Source: a virus
IMG/VR virus record: IMGVR_UViG_3300036781_000111
Location: 1 to 38,122 of that record
Reading direction: 5' to 3' (one strand)
Length of the DNA stretch: 38,122 nt
The translations under genes and the position numbers were made by a program. This document shows, piece after piece, positions 10,454 through 36,250 of the stretch. Each line of letters opens with the position of its first letter. The first letter of the stretch is position 1. The notes under the pieces were generated by a model that saw only the letters and a list, made by a program, of their open reading frames with translations, made no database searches and was not told the DNA's origin.

Positions 10454-10492
10454 CCCGGTCAGCGTCACCACCCGAAGGTGACGCTGACCGGG
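10454..10492 (-). terminator. 16-bp hairpin after the major capsid gene
   Basis: A perfect 16-bp stem (10454-10469 with 10477-10492) and 7-base loop lies in the 80-base space between the capsid stop and the next gene. The stem is flanked by direct copies of ATCGGGTGA. There is no U run. It probably acts as a partial terminator or mRNA 3' protector for the highly expressed capsid message. Confidence 0.8.
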
Positions 10493-16895: not shown

Positions 16896-16972
16896 GCCCC
16901 GCATCACCTTGAAAGAATCACGCGGCTCAGAAGAGAGGCTACCGTCCGCGCGAGTGCTAGGTGATGCGGGGC
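16896..16972 (-). promoter_or_regulatory. Leader RNA closed by 14-bp perfect stem
   Basis: GCCCCGCATCACCT at 16896-16909 is exactly complementary to 16959-16972, enclosing 49 bases. It lies between the minus-strand promoter at 17067-17039 and the 52-aa gene. It would form in the leader of any message from that promoter. It could be a terminator for large terminase, an attenuator, an mRNA stabiliser or a DNA site; there is no U run. Confidence 0.65.
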
Positions 16973-17038: not shown

Positions 17039-17067
17039 AGGCTAGTTGACCGGCCAACTAGTGTCAA
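17039..17067 (-). promoter_or_regulatory. Late-region promoter with palindromic operator (site 1)
   Basis: On the minus strand a perfect TTGACA (17067-17062) is followed by 17 bases and TAGCCT (17044-17039). The spacer contains the palindrome CTAGTTG-N6-CAACTAG (17042-17061), shared with three other sites in the window. It lies four bases downstream of the large terminase stop and reads toward the 52-aa gene, portal and capsid. The -10 is weak, so it may need a low repressor level or an activator. Confidence 0.7.
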
Positions 17068-20385: not shown

Positions 20386-20588
20386 GCCGCTAACGCTAGC
20401 AGAAAACGTCCCGTTATCTGGGTCTCGACGATAACGGCAGCCCGAAAGGCCTTGCCTAAATGTACTTTCACGCGTAACCAAGCGTTCTGTAAACACCCCG
20501 GTGCGCGCGTCATAAGCGTGTTACATGGACCTTGGACACATAGGAAAGTTGTACAGGCTATGGGTATTTTCGGTGTTATGGTACCGAT
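20386..20588. promoter_or_regulatory. Divergent start region with inverted repeat
   Basis: 203 bases between the first leftward and first rightward genes, with locally lower GC. CCGTTATC (20411-20418) and GATAACGG (20430-20437) form an 8-bp inverted repeat with 11-base centre, well placed as an operator for the leftward gene. An imperfect direct repeat GTGTTACATGG / GTGTTATGG lies at 20518 and 20573. On the minus strand TTTACA is seen near 20495, and on the plus strand TTGTAC (20549) and TGTTAT (20574), spaced 19; none is a convincing full promoter. A replication origin here is possible, but no iterons were found. Confidence 0.5.
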
Positions 20589-21176
20589 ATGTCATTCAAT
20601 CATTCAGGCGAACCCTCCGTGCATCGAACCCGCCAGCGCCGCGACTGGGCACCCCTCATCGAGGCCGCCAAAGCCGACCCCACCCAGTGGTTTCAGTACC
20701 CCGATCGCGTCCCCCGCTCCACTCAGCAGAACATCCTCGAGCACTCCCTCTTCCAGCCGGGCCAGTTCTGGCAGACCCAGATCACCGACTTCCATGACGG
20801 CCGCGGCTACCTCTGGATCAAGTACTCCCCGCCAGCCGACCCGACCCCGTTCGTGCTCACCCGCGACTCGGACGGCGTCCGTGCCCGCGTCCCCGTCTTG
20901 ACCCTCTCGGAGATGATCTGGTGGGACCACGGCATCACCTCCAGCTACGAGCCCCGTCCCGAGTACGAGCCCGGCTACGACCCGGCCAACCCGCCCCCGC
21001 CGCCGCCGCCGAAGGTGAAGCGCTCCAAGCCGACCGGCCACCGCTTCGATATCCCCGACGACGCCTGGGGCGACCCCGCCACCGTCGACGCACAGGGCCT
21101 CCCCACCACCCCCGCCGCCCCCGCCACGCCGACCCCGCCCCGACCCTTGACCGGCCCCGCCGACCCGATAGAGTAG
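20589..21176 (+). CDS. Hypothetical protein, first rightward gene, 195 aa
   Basis: ATG 20589 has no ribosome site but lies about 10 bases after a -10-like TGTTAT, so a leaderless message is plausible. Residues about 15-120 look folded (RDWAPLIEAAKADPTQWFQYP, then LEHSLFQPGQFWQTQI). From about 115 the protein is Pro-rich (EPRPEYEPGYDPANP, a run of seven Pro) and disordered to the end. No family recognised; possible early regulatory or host-interaction protein. Confidence 0.65.
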   Translation: MSFNHSGEPSVHRTRQRRDWAPLIEAAKADPTQWFQYPDRVPRSTQQNILEHSLFQPGQFWQTQITDFHDGRGYLWIKYSPPADPTPFVLTRDSDGVRARVPVLTLSEMIWWDHGITSSYEPRPEYEPGYDPANPPPPPPPKVKRSKPTGHRFDIPDDAWGDPATVDAQGLPTTPAAPATPTPPRPLTGPADPIE

Positions 21177-21179
21177 CCC

Positions 21180-21282
21180 CGGGCCGTGAGAAGCCACCCG
21201 GCCTGACTTCCCTCCAAGTGCCACCGTCTCGACGGTCTGCCGGGGAGCCAGGCCGGGACCACGGCCCGCCCCGCTTCTCACG
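21180..21282 (+). ncRNA. Candidate structured RNA with two alternative folds
   Basis: Starts four bases after the previous stop. Fold A: CGTGAGAAGC (21185-21194) pairs with 21273-21282 (10 bp); CCCGGCCTG (21197-21205) with 21249-21257 (9 bp); CTCC (21212-21215) with GGAG (21244-21247); ACCGTC (21223-21228) with 21231-21236. Fold B: CGGGCCGTG (21180-21188) pairs with CACGGCCCG (21260-21268), which excludes the outer helix of fold A. Just downstream, ACAG-GAAGG-CTGT holds the ribosome site of the next gene in a hairpin loop. All pairings are exact in the sequence; the regulatory role is inference. Confidence 0.6.
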
Positions 21283-21302
21283 ACAGGAAGGCTGTACCCG
21301 AA

Positions 21303-21962
21303 ATGGCGCTTCGCATCCCCTTACTGGACGAAATGGCCCGCGCGCTGTGGGAGAGCGAGTCACGCGACATGACCTGGTACGAGCTACTCGACGCCACGAC
21401 CAAGGAATCGCCAAGCGGCATCGCTGAGCGTGCGCAGCTCCATGGCGTCCGGAGCCGGGCGCACCTAATCCTCACGCGCCTATTCGCTGACCCGTTGCCG
21501 GCGCCGAGGCCGCCGATGGGCGCCGAGTGGGGCGAGGTTGATCCCAGTGCCATTTTCGAGGCGTTGCGCATGCTCTTGCCCGGTTTCGAGTTCCAGGTGT
21601 TCAATAGCCACGCGGTCACCTTCAGCACCGTGGTCAAGGCGCGACGGGCGCAGGGCGCTCTCGAGCTCACCGACTACACGCTCATGGACAATCGCGCCAC
21701 CGGCGCCGCCATTATCTCCTTCGTGCGGCAACTGCGCGCCGACGCTATCCATGCCTACGGCCTCGATAAGGCATTCGAGGCCGAGTGGGATCGTGCCCGC
21801 GGCGAGGCGCGCGCACAGACCATCAAGGGCGTGCTCGGCCTCATCGAGGCCACCCGCGTCTGGGTCGAGCCCGAGGGTGACATCGATGACGAGAGCGGAT
21901 ACCTCGAGCCCCTGACGCCGGAAATGGCGCGCCTCGCCGCTCAGCTACGCGCCAATGACTGA
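21303..21962 (+). CDS. Hypothetical early protein, 219 aa
   Basis: ATG 21303 is 11 bases after AGGAAGG. Mostly helical; an N-terminal helix-rich part (MTWYELLDATTKESPSG, HGVRSRAHLILTRLF) could be HTH-like but is weak. The middle (LELTDYTLMDNRATGAAI) is unremarkable. Overlaps the primase-helicase start by eight bases, so probably co-translated with it and possibly a replication partner. Not recognised. Confidence 0.7.
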   Translation: MALRIPLLDEMARALWESESRDMTWYELLDATTKESPSGIAERAQLHGVRSRAHLILTRLFADPLPAPRPPMGAEWGEVDPSAIFEALRMLLPGFEFQVFNSHAVTFSTVVKARRAQGALELTDYTLMDNRATGAAIISFVRQLRADAIHAYGLDKAFEAEWDRARGEARAQTIKGVLGLIEATRVWVEPEGDIDDESGYLEPLTPEMARLAAQLRAND

Positions 21963-24477
21963 CTCCCCCAAGGGCGTCCCCGGTACTCCGATCGCCTCCC
22001 CCGACGACACCCTGACCATCGCCCTGTCCCTGGCCCGTCAGGGCTGGTACGTCTTCCCGGTGAACCTGATCCCGACCACTCGGCCGGACGGGTCCACCTT
22101 CACCGACAAGCGCCCCCTGATCCGCTGGCTGGAGGGCGCCACCACCGACCCGGAGCTGATCGCCACCTGGTGGGGCGCCGACTTCCCGGGCGCCTGGATC
22201 GGCGTCCAGTGCGAGAAGAGCCGTCTCGTCGTCGTCGACCCGGACACCGATAAGGGGCAGCGGTTCCCGAAAGGTCACGAGCGCGAGGGCGAGCTCAAAG
22301 GTGACGGCAAGGCGAATCTGAAGGCGGCCGGAATCAAGCTGCCCAAGACCTTCCACTACCCGACCCGCTCGGGTGGCTCTCACTACGTCTACCGCGCCCC
22401 CAAGAAGCGCCGTCTGACAATCGCCCAGGACGTGCCGGTGCCGTCCGTCGACGTCCGCGCCGGCCACGGCCTGATGGTCTACTACGGCCCGGAGCTGACC
22501 GGCAAGCCATCCCTGGCCCCCGCCCCGTCCTGGGCACTCCTGGACGCCAAGCACGATCGCTCAGCGATCGGTCCGGGCACCCCGTCCGCGACCGTGCAGC
22601 AGTGGCTGGACCGTGTCCCTGACGGACGCCAGGACCCTCATGTGGTCGCGGCCCGTAAAGAGGTCACCGCCACCGGCATGGGCCACGACCAGATGCTGGC
22701 CGCCGTCGACCGGCTCGTCCGGCTCGGCTCGGAGGGGGCGAAAGGTGCCGGTCACGCCCTCCTGGAGGCGCGCGAGACCTATCTGGCCGACTTCCCCGAG
22801 CACGCCCGGCACTGGGACACCGCCGTCCAGGGCTCGGTCGCCCACTACGGCCTGCCCCTGCATCTGATCCGCATCCCGAAAGCGGACCGGGTCGCCATCC
22901 GGGAGCGCAAGAAGAAGCGCGCCGACAAGACCGACACGGACCCGGTCCGGCTCGGGGTTCGGCTGCTGGACGACGGCCCGCTGGCGGAGGAATGCGCCGA
23001 GCGCTTCGAGGGGGTGTGGGCGTGGGGCCACGACCGCGGGCTGATGCACTGGCGCGACGGCCGCTGGCTGGTCCCACCCGCCGAGCTGGCCGGACGGCTC
23101 CTAAAAGAGGACGTCCGCACCTACCTGCGCGGCATCGAGGTGGAAGAGCACACCCGGGCGGTTCAGCGCGACGACGGGCCGCGGATCAAGTTGGCCCAGA
23201 CGCTGTTGAGTGGGTCGAAAGCTCGAGCCGTCACCGACCTGCTGCAGGGCATCCTGGCTAAGCGGCAGCTGGCCACCGACGCGGACCCGTGGCTGCTGAA
23301 CACGCCGACCGGTGTCGTGGATCTGCGCACGAAGACCCTCCAGTCCCACGACTGGCGTCTGGGCATGACGAAGATGACCGCGGTCGGCTACGACCCGCAC
23401 GCCGACACCACCGTCTGGGACCAGGCTCTCACCGCCCTCCCGCCCGAGGTTGCGTCGTGGATGCAGTACCGACTCGGCCAGGCCGCGGTGGGCCTGCCGC
23501 CCGAGGACGACGTGATGCTGATCCTGCAAGGCGGTGGCGAGAACGGGAAGACCACGATCGCGCACGCGCCCCGGGTGAGCCTGGGCGACTACGCGGTGAA
23601 GATGAGCGACCGTGTCCTGATGGCCAACCCGGGCGACCACCCGACCGAGATGATGGAGCTGATGGGCGCCCGCTATGCGCTCGCGGAAGAGTTGCCAGAA
23701 GGCCGCTCGCTGAACGTGCAGCGGGTGAAAGAGATCATCGGCACCCCGGAGATCACTGCGCGCCGGATGCGGCAAGACCCGGTTACGTTCACGAGCTCGC
23801 ACACGCCGGTCATCACCACCAACCCGATCCCGGTGGTGCCGGAGACCGATCACGGCTCCTGGCGTCGACTGCTGCTGGTGAAGTTCGATTACCGCTTCGT
23901 GAAACGGCCCCAGGACCGCGTCAGCGAGCGTGACAGGCTGGGCGACCCGAACGTGCGCCGGCTGCTCGCCAAGCCCGACGCGGGCGTCCTGGCGTGGCTG
24001 GTGGACGGTGCAGCGGCATGGTGGGCGGCGGACCAGGTGATGCCGGAGCCTCCGGCGAAGGTTCTGCGCGACACCGAGCTGTGGCGCGAAGACGCGGACC
24101 CGGTGATGGGCTACTTCACGGAGCGGCTCGAGATGGACCCGGCCAGCGCGATCACCTGCGACGACCTGGGGCGCGATTTCAACGACTGGCTGCGCCGGCA
24201 CGAGCACCGGCCCTGGGGGGCGCAGACGGTCAACTCCCGCTTCGGCGGCCATGTCACCTTCGCCAGCGTCGAGCGCCAGCGGGCCAAGTTCGACGGCACC
24301 CTGCGTCCGTCCCGCCCCCCGATGTCGATGGGTCCTGTCCCGGCCAACACCTGGTCATGGGTGGGCGTCCGGTTCGCGACCGAGGCGGGGTCGGGGATCG
24401 GGCCCAGCGACGAGGGCCTGCAGCGGAGCCGGTTCGACGAGATCGTGATGGGCCTGACGGGGCCGAGCGATGACTGA
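21955..24477 (+). CDS. Prim-Pol primase and SF3 (D5-type) helicase fusion, 840 aa
   Basis: Residues about 20-200 match the bifunctional primase/polymerase domain: GWYVFPVN (30-37), KRPLIRWLEGATTD (52-65), IGVQCEKSRLVVVDPD (82-97) with the catalytic DPD at 95-97. A D5-N-like region (PEEVASWMQYRLGQ type) precedes the SF3 helicase: Walker A GGGENGKTT at 526-534, an acidic ALAEELPEG Walker B region at about 572-580, the EIIGTPEITARRM stretch, and TTNPIPVVPETD near 620-632 as sensor, followed by RRLLLVKFDYRF. Such fusions prime and unwind phage DNA. It starts in overlap with the upstream gene. No polymerase of family A or B is coded in the window, so host polymerase III is presumably used. Confidence 0.92.
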   Translation: MTDSPKGVPGTPIASPDDTLTIALSLARQGWYVFPVNLIPTTRPDGSTFTDKRPLIRWLEGATTDPELIATWWGADFPGAWIGVQCEKSRLVVVDPDTDKGQRFPKGHEREGELKGDGKANLKAAGIKLPKTFHYPTRSGGSHYVYRAPKKRRLTIAQDVPVPSVDVRAGHGLMVYYGPELTGKPSLAPAPSWALLDAKHDRSAIGPGTPSATVQQWLDRVPDGRQDPHVVAARKEVTATGMGHDQMLAAVDRLVRLGSEGAKGAGHALLEARETYLADFPEHARHWDTAVQGSVAHYGLPLHLIRIPKADRVAIRERKKKRADKTDTDPVRLGVRLLDDGPLAEECAERFEGVWAWGHDRGLMHWRDGRWLVPPAELAGRLLKEDVRTYLRGIEVEEHTRAVQRDDGPRIKLAQTLLSGSKARAVTDLLQGILAKRQLATDADPWLLNTPTGVVDLRTKTLQSHDWRLGMTKMTAVGYDPHADTTVWDQALTALPPEVASWMQYRLGQAAVGLPPEDDVMLILQGGGENGKTTIAHAPRVSLGDYAVKMSDRVLMANPGDHPTEMMELMGARYALAEELPEGRSLNVQRVKEIIGTPEITARRMRQDPVTFTSSHTPVITTNPIPVVPETDHGSWRRLLLVKFDYRFVKRPQDRVSERDRLGDPNVRRLLAKPDAGVLAWLVDGAAAWWAADQVMPEPPAKVLRDTELWREDADPVMGYFTERLEMDPASAITCDDLGRDFNDWLRRHEHRPWGAQTVNSRFGGHVTFASVERQRAKFDGTLRPSRPPMSMGPVPANTWSWVGVRFATEAGSGIGPSDEGLQRSRFDEIVMGLTGPSDD

Positions 24478-31040: not shown

Positions 31041-32750
31041 ATGGGCAAGGATAAGAAGAAGAGCAAGGGCAAGAAAGCCAATGCGACGGTGGCGGAGGTC
31101 CGCGCCGAGGTCATCGATCAGGTCTTCGCCAAGGCCAAGAAGACGTCCAAGGCCGCCAAGAAGGCGAGCAAGGCCTGGAACGAGCACGACGCGCTCGAGC
31201 ACAAGATCAAGGGGGCGAAGAGTCCCGACGCACTCCCCGGCGAGACTGAGGTCGACTATCAGTGGCGTAAGGCACACGAGAAAGAGAAAGCTGAGCGTGA
31301 CCCGCTCGCGGTCGGTCCCGGTGATGCGGTCCCAGACCCGACCCTGGAGCCCGCGCTGGCTTACGTCGCCTCGGTCATCGAGCAACTCGGTCCCGTTGAT
31401 GACGAGCCCGACGACGAGGCCAAGCATCCGCACCTGAAGCACCTGGACGAGGTCGGCCGGCTGGACGCGATCGTGAACGACAAGGCCCAGCCCAAGAAGG
31501 CCCGCCAGAACGCCCAGGCCCGCCTCGATCACCTCCGCGCCGAGGGCGAGGCCGCGCAGGCCAAGCGCGACAAGAAGGTGACAGTGACGGGCCTGAAGCC
31601 AGGAGTTGTAAACCAGGTTGAGGTCATGGAGGTATCCGACGTAAAAACTGGGAAACTGAAGACGCCCAAGGTCACCGTCAACGGTGTACCCCAGACCGTC
31701 ACCGTGGTCGATACCGAGGTCGGCCGCGAGTTCCAGGTGGGTGCCGCAGACACGCTCAGCGCCCCCACCCAGCCCGAGGGCGAGGCCACGATCGAGCGCG
31801 ACCACCTGGGCCGACCGAAGATCCAGTACCGCGACGCGGCGGGGAAGGTGAAGAGCAAGGCGTACACCCGCGTCACCACCTACATCAAGTGCCTGGAGGA
31901 TACTTCCTTGCTCGAGAAGTGGAAGCTTCGTACCTCCCTGATCGGAATGGTGGCGGACGCCGGGGAGGACAACCTCATTGCCGCCACCCGACTCGTCACC
32001 GCCCACGACAAGGCGCTGCGCGTCATCACGAAACGGGAGAAGAAAGGCGAGCTGGACTTGGGCCAGTTCGGGCTCATGCGCGCAGACGCGGACAAGGCGC
32101 TGCGCGATGGCTTGAACGCGATCGCGGACAAGACCCTGGACCTGGGCGGGGCGCACGAGAAGGCGCTGAAAGGCACCAACCTGCACGCCCTCACCGCCAT
32201 GCTCGACGAAGGCAAGATCGCCATGGACGACCCGGACGGGCTGGAGAACCTCGTCGAGTCTGGTCTGGCCACCCACTCGGACATCGCGGACCTGCGCGCC
32301 TACGACTCGAAGATGCGCGAGCTCGGCATCAGGCACGTCGCCGTCGAGCAGATGGTGGTCATCGACGAGCTGGCCGTGGCCGGGACCTTGGACCGGGCGA
32401 GCCTGTACCGGTTCCCCGGCACCACCCGCGCCATCCGCTGCGTGGCCGACATCAAGACGGGCCGCGTCGACTACGGCGCCGGGACCATCGGCATGCAGAT
32501 CAAGATGTACGCCCTCGGTAAGTCCTACGACCCGTCAGCGGCCGACCCGTCCCAGCGCGAGGATCTGAAGCTGAGCAAGTCGAAAGGCCTGCTGATCCAC
32601 CTGCCCCAGGGTCAGGCCCGCTGCGAGGTCTACGAGGTGGACCTGGACCTGGCCACGGTCGGGACCAAGTTGGCCGGCGAGGTCCGCGCCTGGCGCAACG
32701 CCGGGAAGCGGGTCGTGGACCTGACTAAGCCGCTGGCGGTGACCGAGTGA
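31041..32750 (+). CDS. RecB/Cas4-like PD-(D/E)XK exonuclease, 569 aa
   Basis: AAGGAGG six bases before ATG 31041. The C-terminal part carries the nuclease motifs in order: Glu436 in VEQMVV, Asp451 in GTLDR, Asp470-x-Lys472 in VADIKTG, and Gln486/Tyr490 in QIKMYA, the last typical of RecB/Cas4-type enzymes. The N-terminal 20 residues are Lys-rich (GKDKKKSKGKK); residues about 20-190 are charged helices. The middle (about 185-290) is beta-rich. It is probably a recombination exonuclease. No Cys cluster for an iron-sulphur centre is seen, which argues against Cas4 itself. Confidence 0.8.
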   Translation: MGKDKKKSKGKKANATVAEVRAEVIDQVFAKAKKTSKAAKKASKAWNEHDALEHKIKGAKSPDALPGETEVDYQWRKAHEKEKAERDPLAVGPGDAVPDPTLEPALAYVASVIEQLGPVDDEPDDEAKHPHLKHLDEVGRLDAIVNDKAQPKKARQNAQARLDHLRAEGEAAQAKRDKKVTVTGLKPGVVNQVEVMEVSDVKTGKLKTPKVTVNGVPQTVTVVDTEVGREFQVGAADTLSAPTQPEGEATIERDHLGRPKIQYRDAAGKVKSKAYTRVTTYIKCLEDTSLLEKWKLRTSLIGMVADAGEDNLIAATRLVTAHDKALRVITKREKKGELDLGQFGLMRADADKALRDGLNAIADKTLDLGGAHEKALKGTNLHALTAMLDEGKIAMDDPDGLENLVESGLATHSDIADLRAYDSKMRELGIRHVAVEQMVVIDELAVAGTLDRASLYRFPGTTRAIRCVADIKTGRVDYGAGTIGMQIKMYALGKSYDPSAADPSQREDLKLSKSKGLLIHLPQGQARCEVYEVDLDLATVGTKLAGEVRAWRNAGKRVVDLTKPLAVTE

Positions 32751-32914
32751 TTATCGCGATCCTGGCGCTGGCCGTCCTGACGGTGCTGAGCGTCCAGGCC
32801 ACTAACCGCGAGCCCGACAAGGTCAAGAGCCAGCACCTCGGCGCCATGGCGATAACCTTCGCCACCGCGATCATCGTTCTGGCGATCATTCTTCTGGCAA
32901 CTGGAAGGCTCTAG
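32747..32914 (+). CDS. Two-pass small membrane protein, 55 aa
   Basis: GTG 32747 overlaps the exonuclease TGA. Membrane segments at about 2-17 (IIAILALAVLTVLSVQ) and 34-52 (MAITFATAIIVLAIILLA), joined by a polar loop NREPDKVKSQ. Stop TAG 32912-32914 lies inside the palindrome of operator site 4. Unknown function. Confidence 0.7.
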   Translation: MIIAILALAVLTVLSVQATNREPDKVKSQHLGAMAITFATAIIVLAIILLATGRL

Positions 32915-32928
32915 TTGACCGGTCAACT
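32911..32928 (+). promoter_or_regulatory. Palindromic operator (site 4), no clear promoter boxes
   Basis: CTAGTTGACCGGTCAACT, with a 16-bp uninterrupted perfect palindrome AGTTGACCGGTCAACT at 32913-32928; the right arm lacks the final AG of the other sites. TAACCT follows at 32931-32936, but no fitting -35 lies upstream. It precedes the Lys-rich 158-aa gene by 100 bases. It may act as an operator for a weak or activated promoter, or as a roadblock site. Confidence 0.65.
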
Positions 32929-33026
32929 GCTAACCTAGGGGTGGCCGAGATGGCCCAGTCCCCGCGGGATTGTTTCACGCTCACGCCAACGGCAAGTCAC
33001 GAAAATATCAAGGAAGGGTAACGATC

Positions 33027-34532: not shown

Positions 34533-35466
34533 CCTGCTGGACGATTCCTTCCCCCACGGCACGAAGGCTGGGTATGACGCAGGGTGCCGGGGCGGGGCGT
34601 GTCCGGCCCCGATGAAGTGTCGGGACGTTCGCGCTCGCTACATGGGCGATTACGCCTTCCGGCGCCAGATCGATGCCGGCCTGACGATTGCCACTATCCT
34701 AGCCAATGAGCTAGCTGACGCCGAGAGCGCCCGCCTGGCCGCTGTTGCTGAGCGTCAGGCGGCGCGCTCGGCACTGCTGGTTCAGAAGCCGCAGAAGCCG
34801 CCGCGAGAACGCACCCCGAAGCCGCCGCGAGAACGCACCCCGAAGCCGCCGCGGCCCGAGCCCGCCCCGGTCCTGCATGGTTCATTGACGATGTACCGAC
34901 GCGGCTGCCGCGATGACACCTGCCCCGCCGATCCTTCATGCTCGACCGTAGCGCTTGCCTACTACGCGGCCCGGAACCGTGCCCTGGTGCGCACCGTGCA
35001 AGGGCATGGGACTAACGCCTCCTTCGTCCGTGGCTGCCGGTGCGAGCCTTGCCAGGAGGCGCACCGCAAGTACCACCGCGACTACGCCGCCAAACGGAGA
35101 GCCGAGCCGATCCCCACCGACAAGCACGGCACCGTCTACGGCTACGTTCTGGGATGCCACGATCGTGCAGCCTGCCCCGCGTCACCGACCTGCACCGATG
35201 TACAACGTGCAGCGGAGACCGCGCAACGCCGCGCCCGTGGCCTCGATCCCGCTCCCGAGCTCGTGGACGCGGTGCCAGCTATCCGGCACATTCAATCTCT
35301 ACGCTCTCGCGGGCTGACCTATGCCGAGATTGCCGCAGCCGCAAAAGTGGGCAGAACCGCGATCGCCGCACTCGTCCGGGGCCGCTACGGCGGCGATCGC
35401 GCGGGCCAAGTCCCTGAGCGGATTTCCGCCGAGCGTGCCGCTCGGATACTGGCGATCGATCCGTAG
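34525..35466 (+). CDS. Protein with four HGT/GC zinc-ribbon-like modules and C-terminal HTH, 313 aa
   Basis: ATG 34525 (ATGACTGA overlap; a second ATG is three bases upstream). Four modules of form HGT-xxx-Y/F-xx-GC-x(n)-C: residues 11-32 (HGTKAGYDAGCRGGAC), 118-139 (HGSLTMYRRGCRDDTC), 161-176 (HGTNASFVRGCRCEPC) and 201-223 (HGTVYGYVLGCHDRAAC). A Pro/Arg linker with the repeat PPRERTPK lies at 92-109. Residues 262-286 (RGLTYAEIAAAAKVGRTAIA) form an HTH. Modules of this kind are widespread in actinobacteria and their phages but usually single. Likely a DNA-binding, zinc-stabilised protein. Confidence 0.78.
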   Translation: MTDLLDDSFPHGTKAGYDAGCRGGACPAPMKCRDVRARYMGDYAFRRQIDAGLTIATILANELADAESARLAAVAERQAARSALLVQKPQKPPRERTPKPPRERTPKPPRPEPAPVLHGSLTMYRRGCRDDTCPADPSCSTVALAYYAARNRALVRTVQGHGTNASFVRGCRCEPCQEAHRKYHRDYAAKRRAEPIPTDKHGTVYGYVLGCHDRAACPASPTCTDVQRAAETAQRRARGLDPAPELVDAVPAIRHIQSLRSRGLTYAEIAAAAKVGRTAIAALVRGRYGGDRAGQVPERISAERAARILAIDP

Positions 35467-35470
35467 AGCC

Positions 35471-36250
35471 ATGGCCCGCCAGCCTTGCATCGAGTGTCAC
35501 GTCCGGCCCCCGTCCGGGTCGCGTCGGCGGTGCGCGACGTGCCTGCTGCGTCACGAGCCCGTCGACGTCCAGGTGGCGGCGTGCCGGCGTCGGCTCGGGA
35601 TGGTGCCGGTGGAGTTGCGCCGCGCCCGAGTGAAGGCCGAACTCTGGCCCGCGGGGACGCGCTGGTGTGCCTCCTGCCAGTCGTTCCGTGATCTGACGGA
35701 CATGGCGGGCGGCGGGAAAGGGTCACGGTGCCGGGCGTGTGCGTCGGCGGCGTCCCACTCGGCCATGCTCGAGCGCACCTACGGGCTCACGACCGCCCAG
35801 TACGACGATCTGCTGGCCCGCCAGGGCGGGCGGTGCGCCATCTGCCGCCAGAAGCCCGGCAAGAAACGCCTGGCGGTCGATCATGACCACGTCACCGGCG
35901 CGGTCCGGGGCCTGCTGTGCGCCCGGGATAACCACGAGCTGCTCGGGGCCGGGTTCGACTCCACCGCCAAGCTGGTGGCCGCCGCCTACTATCTCGCCCA
36001 CCCACCCGCGACGGGCACCTGGCGATCTCCCGAGGATGGCCTGGACGCCACCTTCACGTTCCCGACCGAGGACGCGCGCGCCCGGCACCCGGAACTGGTC
36101 GCGGTCGGCGGAACCGTCCGGGCCGCGGCCACCGGCGAGGACGTGGTCTGCACCCGGCCTCACGTCATGCCGGTCGGCGCGGTCAAAGACCCGGACCGGC
36201 CCGGCACCTGGCGGGTGTGGGTGGAGGACGGCGCGCCGGCACCGTTCTAG
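35471..36250 (+). CDS. Endonuclease VII-like HNH nuclease with extra zinc knuckles, 259 aa
   Basis: Start ATG 35471, four bases after the upstream stop. Residues 100-170 match recombination endonuclease VII: YGLTTAQYDDLLARQGGRC, CAIC at 122-125, VDHDH at 136-140, then GLLCARDNHELLG with Cys150 and Asn154/His155. Two further zinc knuckles precede it: Cys6/Cys9 with Cys21/Cys24, and Cys66/Cys69 with Cys87/Cys90. The enzyme resolves branched DNA before or during packaging. A beta-rich C-terminal 80 residues of unknown role follow. Last gene of the rightward unit. Confidence 0.88.
   Translation: MARQPCIECHVRPPSGSRRRCATCLLRHEPVDVQVAACRRRLGMVPVELRRARVKAELWPAGTRWCASCQSFRDLTDMAGGGKGSRCRACASAASHSAMLERTYGLTTAQYDDLLARQGGRCAICRQKPGKKRLAVDHDHVTGAVRGLLCARDNHELLGAGFDSTAKLVAAAYYLAHPPATGTWRSPEDGLDATFTFPTEDARARHPELVAVGGTVRAAATGEDVVCTRPHVMPVGAVKDPDRPGTWRVWVEDGAPAPF

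Follow-up and report, generated by a model that had tools for sequence, protein, structure and literature searches.

The question raised by this locus is whether a short gap upstream of the replication genes of a virus encodes a leader RNA with two mutually exclusive folds, and what a choice between them could control. The window analysed here is one virus record of 38,122 bases. Its left part carries minus-strand structural genes (portal, large terminase), and the plus-strand genes begin at 20589. The leader region, 21180-21282, is located inside a 126-nt non-coding gap (21177-21302). This gap precedes ORF 21303-21962, which overlaps the prim-pol gene, in agreement with the early position ahead of the replication genes that the original prediction had named. 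The features of the locus are:

20589-21176, plus strand: upstream ORF, 195 aa, no family or homologue found
21147-21174, plus strand: predicted sigma-70-like promoter, TTGACC-16-TAGAGT, 9 of 12 consensus bases
21180-21188 with 21260-21268, plus strand: competitor helix B, 9 bp, exact, CGGGCCGTG/CACGGCCCG
21180-21186 with 21199-21205 (21180-21205), plus strand: possible early local hairpin S1, from folds of 5' fragments, which would form ahead of the transcription of S3 and B
21185-21194 with 21273-21282, plus strand: helix S2, 10 bp, exact, CGTGAGAAGC/GCTTCTCACG
21197-21205 with 21249-21257, plus strand: inner G+C-rich helix S3, 9 bp, exact, CCCGGCCTG/CAGGCCGGG
21283-21295, plus strand: small 4-bp hairpin ACAG/CTGT with the Shine-Dalgarno sequence GAAGG (21287-21291) as its loop
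21303-21962, plus strand: first downstream ORF, 219 aa, no family or homologue found
21955-24477, plus strand: prim-pol / D5-type helicase gene, overlapping ORF 21303-21962; PF09250 (2.9e-21), PF08706, phrog_1156 (1.3e-82)

Genomic setting and folding of the leader

Neither flanking ORF gave a relative by tblastn against 50,697 phage records or by peptide patterns in IMG/VR, near records possibly being omitted from both, and positions 17000-38122 gave no near match to phage DNA. A PHROGs scan of the ORFs to the right of 20500 left 10 of 15 without a match. The scan identified an exonuclease (31041-32750) and an endonuclease VII (35321-36250) in addition to the prim-pol gene, and ORF 30296-31003 features a long low-complexity Ala/Asp/Tyr tract. 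By terminase and prim-pol the phage lies near the Microbacterium phages OscarSo, Isperia, and Wyvern, with protein identities of 47-53%.

The predicted promoter ends 6 nt 5' of the 9-bp helix, and the usual spacing would place the transcription start near 21180, at approximately the first base of this helix. Promoter-like sites number 3 in 9.7 kb over both strands, compared with 0.5 expected. A terminator-like hairpin followed by a T tract is absent from 21180-21300, which leaves an intrinsic transcription attenuator unsupported. The upstream ORF, read from the sequence at 20570-20592, is without an evident Shine-Dalgarno sequence and has a TATGGT hexamer 6 nt 5' of its ATG; its message may be leaderless.

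The exact 10-bp helix and the two exact 9-bp helices of the original prediction were all found at the same coordinates and above chance. Shuffles restricted to the pairing zones gave p = 0.0003 for S2, the floor of 3000 shuffles, and p = 0.0005 for B, the floor of 2000. S2 and B are mutually exclusive because bases 21185-21188 are common to both and their strands otherwise cross, so the alternative helix does break the outer one as had been proposed. The ribosome site was likewise found where it was expected, in the loop of the small hairpin, and the 3' strand of S2 ends 2 nt 5' of the Shine-Dalgarno stretch as the test defined it. The claim of two inner hairpins did not hold, since the interior of the minimum-energy fold is a nested series, CUUCCC/GGGGAG around CCGUC/GACGG, and not a pair of side-by-side hairpins.

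The fold of 21170-21300 has a predicted energy of -62.3 kcal/mol (z -3.08) and 0 of 200 shuffles were equally stable; with the 10-bp helix forced on this stretch the energy is -59.3 kcal/mol. A local scan of 20400-22199 in 120-nt windows determined that the leader is the top plus-strand signal (z -3.3). In a scan of the whole window (1,902 windows of 110 nt, step 40, both strands), which is coarse and whose windows may frame the leader poorly, the leader falls outside the 40 strongest windows and is therefore not the most structured place of this genome.

Ensemble energies calculated for the predicted transcript, 21180-21335, are -65.9 kcal/mol for the S2 state, -66.0 kcal/mol for the B state, and -67.0 kcal/mol for the free ensemble, so that folding of both states, suggested as a check of the original prediction, shows them to be near equal. 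Forcing S1 gives -57.8 vs -67.0 kcal/mol for the free ensemble, and S1 is thus unfavoured in the full window leader. In folds of 5' fragments of increasing length, the first bases pair locally, next with 21260-21268, and finally with 21273-21282. The order of synthesis would thus favour the 9-bp state first. By prediction, opening the ribosome site takes 10.7 kcal/mol with the 10-bp helix formed and 10.6 kcal/mol with the 9-bp helix formed, which indicates that neither state hides the site clearly in the window leader.

Other repeats and hairpins are present in the window. An 18-bp palindrome, TAGTTGNYCGNYCAACTA, occurs in four copies (17043-17060, 25927-25944, 29527-29544, and 32912-32929), with 8 strand-wise matches vs 0.15 expected when up to 3 mismatches are allowed, and looks like a putative phage repressor operator. 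A stricter pattern of this palindrome had no match in IMG/VR. Read by eye, a TTGACA-17-TAGTGT promoter-like site at 25921-25949 has its spacer filled by the palindrome. A leader hairpin at 25957-26025 starts 8 nt 3' of this site and ends 22 nt 5' of an ATG, with z -5.7 on the plus strand and -7.4 on the minus strand in a 110-nt window. On the minus strand, a 14-bp perfect helix around 49 nt (16896-16972) lies between a promoter-like site of that strand (17043-17060) and a short ORF downstream. A perfect 16-bp hairpin with a 7-nt loop at 10454-10492 is among the strongest signals of the window (z -5.7).

Leaders in related phages

The prim-pol gene was used to reach relatives because the flanking ORFs gave none. 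Nine loci with a related prim-pol gene were scanned for upstream structure, and the layout was found in six: OscarSo (L002), Isperia (L003), Wyvern (L004), and the IMG/VR loci L007, L008, and L009. In all six the leader sits immediately 5' of an early ORF upstream of the prim-pol gene. A leader of such layout was not seen in the other three of these nine loci, L005, L006, and L010. Scanning 27 further loci, 19 of which were inspected by eye as stretches, added one leader, L075, from a Frankiales MAG contig. Among 16 further genome regions the layout was absent from 15, and the sixteenth, L105, is the locus of L075 itself. L093 and L102 reach a layout score of 46, which is at background, and a second prim-pol alignment gave only two loci, both on contigs already in the set. 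The satellite phage Mulchroom has been placed near OscarSo by its structural genes (PMC10690885), and it was dropped as a further relative, being without an annotated primase. A DNA pattern of the motif in Isperia, Wyvern, and L008 matched 8 stretches in IMG/VR and was set aside; L086 is the contig of L008 itself, and the other 7 appear coincidental by eye and are without the layout.

In the layout shared by the eight leaders, the G+C-rich hairpin S3 is enclosed by S2, the helix of a 5' strand with a strand that precedes the Shine-Dalgarno sequence. The distance from the 3' strand of S2 to the Shine-Dalgarno sequence is 0, 0, 1, 2, 4, 4, 5, and 7 nt, and a promoter-like -10 (TAnnnT) precedes 6 of the 8 leaders. 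The S2 sequences are unlike: CGTGAGAAGC in the window, and CGGCTGAC, TGCTGAC, TGGCTGAC, GCTGAC, GTCGTGGAGA, TGGCTGGGT, and TTTGGCGA in the others. The layout is kept in relatives while the sequence is not. Under a uniform zone rule the p values for S2 are 0.0003 (window), 0.048 (OscarSo), 0.047 (Isperia), 0.008 (Wyvern), 0.14 (L008), 0.004 (L007), 0.012 (L009), and 0.007 (L075), that is, below 0.05 in seven of eight leaders with L008 as the exception. The Fisher combination over all eight, 5e-9, is an upper claim, because four of the leaders are related, so the rows are not independent, and the set was assembled after seeing the structure and not picked blind.

A descriptor of the whole layout, composed after seeing the leaders, was applied to 76 loci, with at most 3.5 kb taken from each. 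The only matches to score above 54, the printing limit, were the leaders of L002, L009, the window, and L007. At scores of at least 53 the real sequences gave 6 matches, a shuffled set 1.3 on average, and the reverse strand 1; at scores of at least 50 these numbers were 7, 3.7, and 5. A loose S1+S2 descriptor applied to whole loci was rejected as unspecific (81 real vs 64 shuffled matches at scores of at least 39). Gapped duplex energies between the 5' and 3' zones reached p < 0.05 in only 4 of 8 leaders; for the five unlike leaders the true pairing was the best among 120 permutations.

Three of the sequences, Isperia, Wyvern, and L008, are alignable, and this trio was scored for B, S1, S2, and S3. 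Of its 75 cells 97.3% are paired, compared with 37-54% when the partners are slid. Six pairs changed on both sides, a number reached in 3 of 500 shuffles; S1, with its 5 bp, accounts for four of them and B for two, and two cells of B are broken. S2 has no covariation in the trio because it never varies there; its 5' strand sits in the loop of the covarying hairpin S1. The covariation in relatives that had been put forward as a check is thus present as compensatory pairs of S1 and B and lacking in the invariant S2. Three sequences make this good but small evidence, which firmly backs S1 and moderately backs B as predicted helices. In the window S1 is a weaker idea than in the trio by the folding calculations. 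Counting G-U vs A-C pairs was discarded as evidence, the helices having been picked with G-U allowed.

A helix B that crosses or competes with S2 can be written in OscarSo, Isperia, L008, L007, and L009 besides the window; in Wyvern and L075 no B of note was found. The predicted energies of the S2 and B states are -77.1 and -76.7 kcal/mol (OscarSo), -72.7 and -71.2 (Isperia), -65.7 and -60.0 (L008), -62.0 and -61.7 (L007), and -76.9 and -77.6 (L009). B is within 1.5 kcal/mol of S2 in 5 of the 6 leaders with a written B, the window included, and in L008 it is 5.7 kcal/mol worse. The p values for B in the seven relatives are 0.36, 0.09, 0.50, 0.15, 0.05, 0.10, and 0.66, and the Fisher value over all eight, 0.0012, leans on the window. 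With B this weak outside the window, the near-equal energies are suggestive and may reflect selection. The predicted opening cost of the ribosome site is greater in S2 in 4 of 6 leaders (OscarSo, Isperia, L008, and L009), and in L007 it runs the wrong way, 4.4 kcal/mol in S2 vs 6.1 kcal/mol in B.

In more distant phages the prim-pol region is preceded by inverted repeats that are nearly perfect and very long: L025 2470-2640, L027 5330-5530, L029 5420-5610, L030 4640-4830, L031 5420-5610, L014 4860-5060, and L019 5310-5500. The L029-L031 repeats show paired changes by eye, GGGTTAGAC/GTCTAACCC and GGGTAAGAC/GTCTTACCC.

Readings of the leader

With two competing folds of nearly equal predicted stability, and with leaders of like layout but unlike sequence in several distant relatives, the leader is probably a real genetic switch. 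The best explanation, to which we give an even chance, is a cis-acting two-state 5' leader RNA that would control the early/replication genes. Transcription would begin at approximately 21180 and give the 5' leader of the early/replication transcript. The first 15 bases of the emerging RNA would pair in turn with the S1 strand, with the B strand behind the central hairpin, and then with the S2 strand. Because B and S2 are exclusive and nearly equal in stability, the decision between them could be made by folding order or by a bound factor (a phage protein, host protein, small RNA, or ligand). For ORF 21303-21962 and the prim-pol gene that overlaps it, this decision could determine either translation initiation or the lifetime of the mRNA. 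Since the S2 strand lies 0-7 nt 5' of the Shine-Dalgarno sequence in 8 of 8 leaders, control of initiation or of the mRNA 5' end is the natural reading, and the position of the leader suggests ribosome-access control. We infer the promoter, the transcription of the RNA, its switching, and the identity of the ON state.

The two-state leader is held at an even chance, with a static leader as its main rival, because the opening cost does not consistently separate the states. A very stable static leader would shield the mRNA 5' end or insulate the ribosome site, and the second helix would be a functionless by-product of high G+C. The start of the helix at about the predicted first base, the marginal competitor B in relatives, and the simple long-hairpin form of two other leaders of this genome (25957-26025, which follows a promoter-like site, and 16896-16972 on the minus strand) are consistent with a static leader. 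However, the significance of B in the window (p = 0.0005) is clear, its energy comes close to that of S2 in 5 of 6 leaders, and S2 abuts the Shine-Dalgarno sequence in all eight, which a protective cap does not need; we regard the static leader as rather unlikely.

The complementarity of the 5' strand to the strand directly before the Shine-Dalgarno sequence in eight leaders is also what an antisense or immunity-type RNA, as in phage P1 C4 and the phage P4 cI RNA, would feature. The 5' part would then be released with its S2 strand free, pair in trans with the pre-Shine-Dalgarno strands of other transcripts, and so silence the replication operon. The 5' strand sits in the loop of a covarying hairpin in the trio, and the operon has a primase-helicase, as P4 does. 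No Rfam family was matched, however, a processing site, repressor, or integrase was not identified here, and the pairing forms readily in cis, which makes such an RNA improbable. A DNA element, with the nested inverted repeats serving as a replication origin or a protein-binding site beside the prim-pol gene, would fit the long near-perfect inverted repeats of the more distant loci (e.g. L025 2470-2640 and L027 5330-5530). We consider it a poor prospect: all eight leaders face a Shine-Dalgarno sequence 0-7 nt away in the sense orientation, six of them have the promoter-like -10 (TAnnnT) ahead, and S3 of the trio has coding-strand G-U pairs, although the choice of helices had allowed G-U. A new ligand-sensing riboswitch with a loop-tail pseudoknot is very improbable. 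In the trio the loop bases of S1 pair with the pre-Shine-Dalgarno tail in a three-way layout with B and S3, and compensatory changes are found in S1 and B, yet the eight leaders have no conserved core letters, which ligand pockets normally have, and B and S2 share bases in the window.

A broader proposal, which builds on the two-state leader and is tentative, is an undescribed class of phage leader whose layout is kept before replication genes while its sequence and the following gene are not. A 5' strand would be poised between two partners, with a central hairpin and a second partner abutting the Shine-Dalgarno sequence, and the energies would be tuned to near equality, which would let a factor of the phage or the host set the timing of replication. 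If it switches, small actinophages would govern the onset of replication through a leader RNA for which Rfam has no entry, and the family would be one that can be recognised by its layout and not by its letters. Cultured hosts are on record for OscarSo, Isperia, and Wyvern, and the leader is therefore directly testable.

Comparison with known RNAs

Neither the window nor the seven relative loci gave an Rfam match at or above a family's gathering score. The best sub-threshold match over 21180-21268 is mraW (12.2 bits vs a threshold of 50), and mir-207 scores 13.3 vs 88. A known riboswitch is not supported, given the same gathering cut-off and the lack of a conserved aptamer core, the helices of the eight leaders being unlike. 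The family model of the C4 antisense RNA (RF01695, named in PMC2864571) was also unmatched. From the attenuator or riboswitch of the original prediction, a structured RNA with exclusive helices of near-equal energy stands, and an intrinsic attenuator and a described riboswitch are left unsupported. A literature search found no paper on this leader, which is no proof of novelty as subscription literature lay outside its scope.

Two exclusive folds of similar predicted energy, as in bistable leaders, are present in the window leader. A fold that restricts the ribosome site more than the other is not found in the window (10.7 vs 10.6 kcal/mol). Of the two folds in relatives S2 is kept and B is marginal, with 6 compensatory pairs in the trio. 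The preQ1 riboswitch features a loop-tail pseudoknot at the Shine-Dalgarno sequence. The leaders of the window type resemble it in a hairpin loop complementary to the Shine-Dalgarno-adjacent tail, but they are without a conserved core or Rfam match and have a large inserted hairpin.

The mRNA of phage lambda cIII has a bistable leader with two alternative folds near the ribosome site of an early gene. The window leader likewise has two predicted alternative folds close to the ribosome site of an early phage gene. It differs in that its alternative partner strand precedes the Shine-Dalgarno sequence, and in that opening the site is predicted to be equally costly in either state. The immunity leader and cI RNA of phage P4 act by premature termination with a trans RNA. 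Competing complementary strands precede the primase-helicase gene in the structured window leader too, in which, in contrast, no terminator-like hairpin or processing site was identified. The strands of C4 RNA can pair with a ribosome-site region further along the transcript that carries them. The upstream strands of the window leader are complementary to the ribosome-site region of their own transcript, but its letters and host group are different and it has no Rfam match. By analogy the leader, which fits under none of these on the tests made, would work like the bistable phage leaders of lambda cIII, P4 immunity, and C4.
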